A stretch of DNA of 28,867 nt from a virus, in the IMG/VR virus record IMGVR_UViG_3300029448_000296, positions 1 to 28,867 of that record, one strand, 5' to 3'. The notes beneath the pieces were generated by a model. That model was given only the letters and a program-made list of their open reading frames with translations, searched no databases and was not told where the DNA came from. This document shows positions 1 to 1,220 of this stretch, piece after piece; positions within the stretch are counted from its first letter, which is position 1, and each line of letters begins with the position of its first letter. The position numbers and the translations under genes are program-made.

Positions 1-462
1 AAATAGCCCGACTGTAAACTAGAAAGTTACAGGGTTGAGGCTTTCTGGTTGACATGGTTTTTTTGTAATTTTGTACGAGTATGCTATATATATACGGGTG
101 GGGTGGGTAGGTCACCTGCGTACCCCTAAGTAACTGCTTAGACTCTTCAGAGTCTTACAGTAGCTTACTTCGTAGACCTCCAAAATCCTTGCAGATTCTA
201 TCTAGTATTGAATAGAGTCTCATCAGTAGCAAAGATGTATTAAGTCAACCAACGCTACCTTGTAAAATAAAAAACATAAAGTAGGGTATGGAACTTTCCA
301 AAACTTGTCAAGGAGCTATAAATCTCCTCCTCTGACAAGTTACGGAGTACTATGGTACTCCTTTGTAAAGTTCCTCCCTAGTTTACAAAGTCTGTAATGT
401 TTTAAAGTGCTACTTAGTTACTCTATAAACTTATTATGTTTTTTATTTTACGGAGGTATCTT
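1..462 (+). promoter_or_regulatory. Non-coding structured leader and upstream region
   Basis: No credible gene is seen here. A TTGACA hexamer (49-54) sits in an AT-rich stretch and could be a -35 box, but no good -10 lies 16-18 bases downstream. From about 100 on, the sequence is a chain of inverted repeats: 133-161, 193-220, 226-258, then a large element enclosed by 262-279 and 434-451. A smaller 8-bp hairpin lies at 19-48. The density of stems just before the first gene suggests a structured 5' leader RNA. The promoter assignment is weak; the inverted repeats are directly visible. Confidence 0.6.
262..456 (+). ncRNA. Candidate multibranched leader RNA with 18-bp closing stem
   Basis: GTAAAATAAAAAACATAA (262-279) is the exact reverse complement of 434-451, giving an 18-bp closing stem. 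Inside are AACTTGTCA/TGACAAGTT (302-310/333-341) with inner AGGAG/CTCCT (311-315/324-328), GGAGTAC/GTACTCC (344-350/355-361, loop TATG) and CTTTGTAAA/TTTACAAAG (361-369/382-390). The GGAGG Shine-Dalgarno of the first gene (452-456) starts right after the closing stem. CCTCC in the last loop (373-377) and CTCCTCC (324-330) are complementary to it. It could be a cis-acting translation regulator, an RNase III-processed leader or a separate small RNA. The pairings are seen; the role is inferred. Confidence 0.55.
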
Positions 463-642
463 ATGGAAGACATGACACTAATACATCTTTATGACCCATC
501 TACTGATGAGACTCATGAGATGTATTCAATACTAGATGCAGAGGATTTTATCGAACAACATCCTTCAAGTCTATCGGTATTCTCAGACAATGAGGATGTA
601 ATTCAATATTTAAACTATATAATGGAGGTCTTAAATGACTAA
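463..642 (+). CDS. Small acidic early protein, 59 aa
   Basis: Function unknown. The product is acidic, starting MEDMTLIHLYDP and ending in a helical IQYLNYIMEVLND segment. The start at 463 is chosen over an upstream in-frame ATG at 436 because GGAGG at 452-456 is correctly spaced for 463, and because 436 lies inside the 18-bp inverted repeat of the leader. It is the first gene after the structured leader and overlaps the next gene by 8 bases, so the two are probably translationally coupled. Position, small size and acidity fit an early host-takeover protein, but that is inference from location only. Confidence 0.75.
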   Translation: MEDMTLIHLYDPSTDETHEMYSILDAEDFIEQHPSSLSVFSDNEDVIQYLNYIMEVLND

Positions 643-1015
643 TACTACTACTGAAAATAACTTACATGCTGAAATATCAGCAGTCAAAAACAGTCCAGCT
701 ACTGTTTCACAATGTAACTATCTTGTATCTTTATACAGACAAGAGCTTGTGAAAGCAGTTACTGATAAACATGAAAATATAAATGTAAGTCCTAGTAACG
801 ACTTTATCAACTTTCGTAAGAAGTTTGGTGGTCTTCAAGGTACTTTTGCAATGCATTTATACAACAGCTTCATTCCTAAAAATGGAGATAAATATCTCAA
901 GAATGAAGTTTCTAGACTTATCAGTGATGCATTGCATGGAAAGTTTAGTAAGCAATTCATAAATGCTTTTATTAAAAGTAAGAATGCTTATGTGAAACCT
1001 CAGAAAGAGAGTTAA
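635..1015 (+). CDS. Hypothetical early protein, 126 aa
   Basis: Function not recognised. The N-terminal 25 residues are polar. A segment near residues 24-36 (ATVSQCNYLVSLY) resembles the short T-x-x-Q-x-x-Y-L helix seen in assorted phage proteins. The C-terminal half is basic and helical (LISDALHGKFSKQFINAF, then KSKNAYVKPQKES), which would suit nucleic-acid or ribosome contact. It starts inside the end of the previous gene with Shine-Dalgarno GGAGG at 623-627. It is the last gene before the terminator at 1031-1071, so it and the 59-aa gene form a two-gene early unit. Confidence 0.8.
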   Translation: MTNTTTENNLHAEISAVKNSPATVSQCNYLVSLYRQELVKAVTDKHENINVSPSNDFINFRKKFGGLQGTFAMHLYNSFIPKNGDKYLKNEVSRLISDALHGKFSKQFINAFIKSKNAYVKPQKES

Positions 1016-1030
1016 CATATAAACTTTCCT

Positions 1031-1071
1031 AAAACTCTAGAGAGCTTCCGAGTTCTCTAGAGTTTTTTTTT
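1031..1071 (+). terminator. Strong intrinsic terminator after the early unit
   Basis: Left arm 1031-1046 (AAAACTCTAGAGAGCT, with one G-U pair) pairs with 1051-1066 around a TCCG tetraloop, followed by an unbroken T run to 1071. The A run on the left side means it could also stop transcription from the other strand. It separates the two early genes from the regulatory region. Confidence 0.9.
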
Positions 1072-1220
1072 ACCTTTGTGACCTTACCCATCCTAAGTAT
1101 TTATATATTATATATACTATATTTTATATAGAGTACATATTAGGGCGAGAGGAAAATATGGCGAGTGTTGAGGCAAAAATATGCGTATGGTTGAGGCATT
1201 TTTATACTTACATACATAAA

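Follow-up and report, generated by a model that had tools for sequence, protein, structure and literature searches.

What structure does the perfect 18-bp inverted repeat beside the first ribosome-binding site of this viral DNA belong to? The window, meaning the whole 28,867-nt stretch of DNA that was analysed, covers positions 1 to 28,867 of the IMG/VR virus record IMGVR_UViG_3300029448_000296. The initial annotation had taken positions 262-456 for a self-contained, multibranched leader RNA of ~190 nt, either riboswitch-like or processed. We found instead that this region is the apex of a far longer self-complementary unit, whose pairing takes in coding sequence of one gene or of two. The annotated boundaries were too narrow, the structure reaching outward at least to 174/631 and probably to 99/1095.

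The window encodes a primase/helicase, a family A polymerase and a ribonucleotide reductase. By helicase, the nearest named phages are the Pelagibacter phages HTVC103P, HTVC104P and HTVC115P (45-47% identity), which infect SAR11. Judged by this gene content and helicase identity, the window is placed near the pelagiphages.

We examined the pairing around the 18-bp repeat. Positions 262-279 and 434-451 are exact reverse complements (18/18), as annotated. The 28.9-kb window has only two other perfect inverted repeats of 15 nt or more whose arms lie no further than 600 nt apart (200-214/523-537 and 215-229/500-514), and both nest outside this one. The annotated inner stems are likewise present in the sequence: 303-311/333-341 (9 bp), 311-315/326-330 (5 bp), 344-350/355-361 (7 bp) and 361-369/382-390 (9 bp). 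The last of these, which makes a CCTCC loop, has a competitor, 290-297/367-374 (8 bp), that the minimum-energy fold prefers. The Shine-Dalgarno sequence does lie at the end of the closing stem, and its connection goes beyond mere adjacency, as GAGGTA at 453-458 pairs with TACCTT at 256-261. The expectation of a strongly non-random fold that sequesters the first ribosome-binding site was thus borne out: the fold of 255-470 reached -71.5 kcal/mol, compared with -40.2 +- 3.8 for shuffled sequences (z -8.3).

Longer segments gave z -12.4 (190-545) and z -11.0 on the plus strand and -13.7 on the minus strand (85-660). Outside 262-451, further perfect stems of 12, 15, 15, 8 and 8 bp run into coding sequence. 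In all, the partners of the leader (about 99-279) are ORF1 (463-642), the ORF1 and ORF2 Shine-Dalgarno sites and a stretch beyond the terminator (Table 1). The leader-ORF2 pairings within 129-165 are the weakest part of the window's structure. The whole-arm alignment score of the window (119) is at background, though its nested stems and shuffle z-scores are not. The window's unit is a reduced form, comprising the ORF1 part plus the ORF2 ribosome-binding site.

Table 1. Coordinates of the self-complementary unit and adjoining elements in the window.
Feature	Position	Strand	Remarks
Possible -35, TTGACA	49-54	+	Seen in the sequence; putative function
AT-rich TATGCTATATATATACGG block	80-96	+	3' of TTGACA; aligns with a promoter-like block conserved in relatives (L062 alignment; 50 loci); putative function
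G-rich conserved element GGGTGGGGTGGGTAGGTCACCTGCGTACCCC, outer closing element	95-125	+	99-115 pairs with 1078-1095
Leader segments facing ORF2	129-165	+	129-139/753-763 (11 bp), 157-165/697-705 (9 bp); from the minimum-energy fold of the whole unit
Anti-Shine-Dalgarno AGACCTCC	174-181	+	Pairs with 624-631 (GGAGGTCT, ORF2 Shine-Dalgarno), 8 bp
Leader arm facing ORF1 codons	182-242	+	182-189/542-549 (8 bp), 200-214/523-537 (15 bp), 215-229/500-514 (15 bp), 231-242/479-490 (12 bp)
Leader arm	256-279	+	256-261/453-458 (ORF1 Shine-Dalgarno); 262-279/434-451 is the 18-bp stem
Apical branched region	280-433	+	Holds the inner stems; recurrent motif CTAGTTTAC at 378-386
ORF1, 59 aa, conserved small protein, no family match	463-642	+	3' arm made up of its start and first ~30 codons
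ORF2, 126 aa, conserved small protein, no family match	635-1015	+	42-48% identity to D-type relatives
Intrinsic terminator 3' of ORF2	1031-1066	+	16-bp stem and T-run
Right closing element GTGACC..TACCCATCCTA	1078-1095	+	Complementary to 99-115, beyond the terminator

The two arms of the unit differ in coding status. Differences in the ORFs fall mostly at third codon positions and are overwhelmingly synonymous; for ORF2, single third-codon-position differences comprised 6133 synonymous and 587 non-synonymous changes. In seven loci, every frame of the leader's minus strand is interrupted by stops. By this pattern of substitutions and stops, both ORFs are coding and the mirror arm is non-coding. 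A divergent coding duplicate, that is, an inverted gene duplication with two coding copies, was ruled out, since the leader minus strand is without ORFs in those seven loci. Neither ORF1 nor ORF2 gave a credible match in PHROGs, Pfam, the phage collection or cellular genomes. For ORF2 of the MENTFDIN type, AlphaFold predicted an all-helical protein (pLDDT 78) with no PDB or BFVD match, and the model of the window type was poor. The window's own ORF1/ORF2 type occurs at 34-48% amino-acid identity in L079/L080, L096 and L130, where local hairpins in the second half of ORF1 take the place of a rod.

We compared the unit with that of related phages. A helicase search, a DNA motif upstream of the unit in relatives and ORF2 searches together yielded about 200 further loci; many of these overlap, being pieces of the same contigs. 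About 50 marine phage contigs have a common layout, consisting of a 25-nt motif, an AT-rich/G-rich block, a leader of 400-800 nt, ORF1 (~60 aa), ORF2 (90-126 aa) and a terminator, and the unit sits between the terminase and the early genes. In most of these contigs, the leader mirrors both ORFs as a reverse complement with interruptions, and the resulting rod is about 1.2 kb long. Whole-unit folding, in which the minimum-energy folds of ~1-kb RNAs are models, yielded a single rod in 20/20 loci examined. In L088, for instance, the leader is joined to ORF1, ORF2 and the terminator by some 35 colinear long-range helices, each of 6-22 bp. A multiple-displacement chimera artefact was ruled out by the many independent assemblies and by the arms, which are only 65-80% complementary where a chimera would be near-perfect.

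At the corresponding locus, which they retain, the isolates HTVC103P, 104P and 115P have neither ORF1/ORF2 nor a rod; they provide a natural negative control. No leader DNA similarity was found in named phages. As the initial annotation had stated, the structure belongs to no known class: Rfam searches of both strands of the window and six relatives gave no match at the gathering score. The helicase of one relative, L006, is 99% identical to that of the window, yet L006 carries another ORF1/ORF2 pair and another unit, with a rod score of 462 against a median of 108. The early region has therefore been exchanged between near-identical phages.

Several short motifs recur around the unit. CTRGTTWAC was found in the window at 14-22 (minus strand) and 378-386 (plus strand), in the 25-mer of L086-L136 and in the apex of relatives. 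It is also present in the spacer of the leftward terminase promoter of HTVC115P (L137, near 42251). This motif alone is not above chance in the window; recurring at regulatory places (the 25-mer, the apex adjoining ORF1, the left promoter), it looks like a putative operator. Boxes of GGTTGAGGC/GGTTGAGGGC, often in two copies, flank the unit on the early-gene side, at 33-42, 1165-1174 and 1189-1198 in the window and downstream of the unit in L097, L101 and L116. Clustered direct and inverted copies of AAAGGTAC/GTACCTTT lie at 1212-1313 in the window, with similar copies at 1385-1485 in L006. In L141-L211, a conserved apex of ~130 nt lies 5' of ORF1, and in several of these loci it holds a sigma70-like TTGACA-N17-TCTAAT/TTTAAT element set in a palindrome; therefore, a mirror-image -35 points left. 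Several CTGTGGATAAC repeats were found in AT-rich DNA about 250-450 nt past ORF2 in L097, L088, L116 and L120. These DnaA-box-like repeats, absent from the window, point to a possible replication origin next to the unit in B-type phages. A search of six related contigs for a T7-like RNA polymerase gave nothing, and the control likewise gave nothing.

To what extent does the leader follow its own operon? The symmetric reverse-complement score of the leader against its own ORFs was 302-644 in 41/41 distinct MENTFDIN-type loci and 399 in L006. The controls scored 114 (shuffled; maximum 151) and 121 (same-sense), and leaders swapped between lineages below 50% ORF similarity scored 135-181. D-type units, at 119-178, are near background in this whole-arm alignment test. 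When synonymous codons were shuffled with the leader fixed, the native fold was better by 31-128 kcal/mol in 11/11 loci (z -5.0 to -12.0), and the window gave z -7.8.

Compensatory changes in the stems of related phages, which the initial annotation had proposed as a check, were looked for and found. Starting from Watson-Crick faces in one sequence and passing to a relative, a change of the ORF base was accompanied by a change of the leader base opposite it in 68% of cases; where the ORF base was unaltered, the leader base differed in 21%. Watson-Crick pairing was restored in 55%. When one sequence alone supplied the structure, pairs altered on both sides were still paired in 44-73% of cells, compared with 31-50% in slid controls; with L117 as the reference on the plus strand, such pairs were not above the slid control. 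The equivalent of the window's closing stem is altered on both sides in L101, L115, L116 and L080, and is matched base for base in L101 (GGAGTGGTC/GACCACTCC), L115 (GGAGTGGGC/GCCCACTCC) and L116 (GGTATGGTC/GACCATACC). Members of one lineage share ancestry, so the counts in all these comparisons of leader and ORFs are of non-independent events. Overall, one-sided changes are seldom retained as wobbles. Mismatches near compensated pairs are healed more often than elsewhere (44% vs 12-36%, by group), which is also expected from partial gene conversion, and gene conversion may be a contributor. Taken together, the sequence comparisons describe a self-complementary unit made of a two-gene plus-strand operon and an upstream non-coding mirror, an interrupted reverse complement that includes the ribosome-binding sites. 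By the same comparisons, the mirror co-evolves with its operon across many marine phage lineages.

We then asked which strand carries the structure. Both strands of 42 loci were folded, and the minus strand was more stable in 38/42, by 85 kcal/mol on average and by up to 231. After correction by dinucleotide shuffling, the excess on minus and plus was -331/-164 in L178, -240/-174 in L006 and -246/-199 in L151; the two strands had the same or almost the same excess in the window (-117/-117), L080, L141 and L164. Control genes in this strand-specific test lay between +6 and -29. The minus-strand RNA of L197 is predicted to fold at -634 kcal/mol with 540 pairs, in near-continuous helices of up to 88 pairs. 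Isolated plus-strand mismatches comprised 125 A.C and 23 G.T, about 5:1, where A.C on the plus strand is G.U on the minus strand. Adjusted for composition, both counts are near expectation (A.C 125 vs 108, G.T 23 vs 21, ratios near 1), so much of the asymmetry reflects a general shortage of G at mismatched plus-strand positions. The A.C faces are evenly spread over codon positions, and the non-coding arm is therefore the side that moved.

The preference differs among lineages. In lineage A and most of B2, the G.U share of rod pairs was ~10% on the minus strand and ~2-3% on the plus strand, and 29-46% of one-sided changes stayed paired on the minus strand compared with 18-23% on the plus strand. 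No strand preference is seen in lineages B1, C and D, the window belonging to D. Neither strand has much wobble in these three lineages or in L088, the pattern to be expected if the structure has to form in both polarities or is maintained as DNA. Since the minus strand folds better in 38/42 loci and A.C faces outnumber G.T 5:1, the selected molecule in the strand-biased lineages is probably a minus-strand RNA. No convincing leftward promoter was demonstrated at the right edge of the unit.

Our leading explanation, put forward tentatively, is that a minus-strand RNA, antisense to ORF1-ORF2, folds onto its own mirror. The mirror would be kept because RNA of the region must fold into a long rod. 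In the wobble-polarised lineages, the rod RNA would be a minus-strand transcript, an antisense of ORF1-ORF2 that carries its own partner. Two modes of action can be envisaged. The mirror arm might lock the antisense RNA, so that the early genes are not silenced until the RNA is opened or processed; or the stable ~1.2-kb rod RNA might itself be the effector. A self-folding antisense RNA tied to a two-gene early operon is a serious contender and, to us, the best reading. It is possible, and here we are more reserved, that the unit represents a new class of phage RNA: a giant minus-strand rod antisense RNA of ~1.2 kb and up to ~540 bp, half of it antisense to the operon and half a non-coding locking mirror, compensated base by base against coding sequence, with a G.U/A.C asymmetry that strengthens the rod in one polarity and weakens it in the opposite one. 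Literature searches, which covered open-access literature, gave no phage precedent for such a mirror unit. If this reading is true, two whole protein genes of a DNA phage evolve under a second, RNA-level code, in which a non-coding arm hundreds of bases off constrains many of their synonymous choices. It would also be the DNA-phage counterpart, in shape, of the obelisk and delta rods, and would suggest early-gene control or double-stranded RNA production by abundant marine phages.

Another explanation is a cis lock on the plus strand, in which transcripts from an upstream promoter carry the leader, the leader pairs with the ribosome-binding sites and coding sequence to silence ORF1-ORF2, and a promoter-like sequence in the apex gives a leaderless, translatable mRNA. 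A trans effect of the free leader, on a second phage of like type, is also conceivable. We consider a cis lock possible and rather less likely than not. The ORF1 Shine-Dalgarno is paired with the leader in 29/29 loci and that of ORF2 in 11/29; a sigma70-like TTGACA-N17-TCTAAT/TTTAAT lies closely 5' of ORF1 in several loci, and a sigma70-like promoter lies 5' of the unit in L080 and L062. In the window, the leader pairs with both Shine-Dalgarno sites, and in 4/4 D-type units it pairs with the ORF1 Shine-Dalgarno and much of the first ~30 ORF1 codons, so for the window this lock remains attractive. However, selection on the plus strand should tolerate G.U and avoid A.C, and lineages A and B2 show the reverse, with G.U at ~2-3% on the plus strand. 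The strand bias of other lineages is left unexplained, and the pairing spans whole genes, far beyond the needs of a ribosome-binding-site lock.

The arms could also descend from an inverted duplication of the operon at the DNA level, kept alike by template switching or gene conversion, with an RNA hairpin that has no function. The matches in B1, C, D and L088, which are almost purely Watson-Crick with wobble in neither polarity, agree with such copying, as does the more frequent turning of mismatches into matches near compensated pairs. However, 56% of the mismatches beside compensated pairs persist, and compensated pairs are mostly single. Symmetric copying would not give the strand-biased A.C faces of lineages A and B2. 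In addition, arms with a complementarity of only 65-80% have persisted in compact phage genomes over deep divergence, and we regard this origin as unlikely.

Quite improbable, in our judgement, is a single-stranded DNA structure that folds at replication, injection or packaging and serves as an origin, a hairpin promoter or a packaging signal. The place of the unit between terminase and early genes would suit it, as would the repeats and the DnaA-box-like CTGTGGATAAC sequences 3' of the unit in some relatives. However, DnaA boxes in the window are not above chance, DNA is expected to give only a weak G.T preference, and HTVC103P, 104P and 115P keep the locus while lacking ORF1/ORF2 and the rod. 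Despite a good local fold (z -8.3), a self-contained riboswitch-like or processed leader RNA at 262-456 is very hard to credit, as the pairing runs on outside on both sides, Rfam gave no match, RNAalifold gave no consensus structure for the apex of A-C-type relatives, the strand-preferring lineages favour the minus strand, and the near-identical phage L006 has a different apex and unit.

The favoured reading, a self-folding antisense RNA, was compared with known systems, and the unit belongs to neither the c4/CI type nor the obelisk/HDV type. The c4 RNA is encoded within the leader of its own target, and the CI RNA of phage P4 is of like kind; both are short RNAs (~80 nt) that pair over two short stretches. 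In phages P1/P7, c4 acts as an antisense RNA: by pairing with the ribosome-binding region of a gene that lies downstream, it controls an early or immunity decision (PMC12197685). The unit resembles c4 of P1/P7 and CI of P4 in having a leader RNA complementary to the downstream ribosome-binding region (29/29 loci for ORF1). However, the mirror here spans one or two whole genes, co-evolves over hundreds of nucleotides and favours the polarity of the opposite strand. There is also no short conserved unit in the leader, and no sequence relation to c4 or CI.

Obelisks are RNAs of about 1 kb that form a rod over their whole length, with protein-coding sequence on one arm, and are widespread in the ocean; their protein Oblin-1 has ~200 aa (PMC11922315). 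The likeness to obelisk and HDV-like rods goes no further than shape, a full-length rod that bears an ORF on one arm, and we claim no membership. Those rods are circular RNA replicons, whereas the unit here lies in a dsDNA tailed-phage genome, is flanked by phage genes and has an intrinsic terminator. It encodes neither Oblin-1 nor delta antigen but proteins of 59-126 aa with no Pfam/PHROG family and, for ORF2, no PDB fold match. GOLLD, ROOL and riboswitches are non-coding multi-stem RNAs and not mirrors of coding genes. They share with the unit a large folded RNA in a phage genome, and differ in that there is no Rfam match here. Finally, ordinary cis-encoded antisense RNAs are likewise antisense to phage genes and have no second arm, whereas the antisense strand described here carries its own complementary partner.
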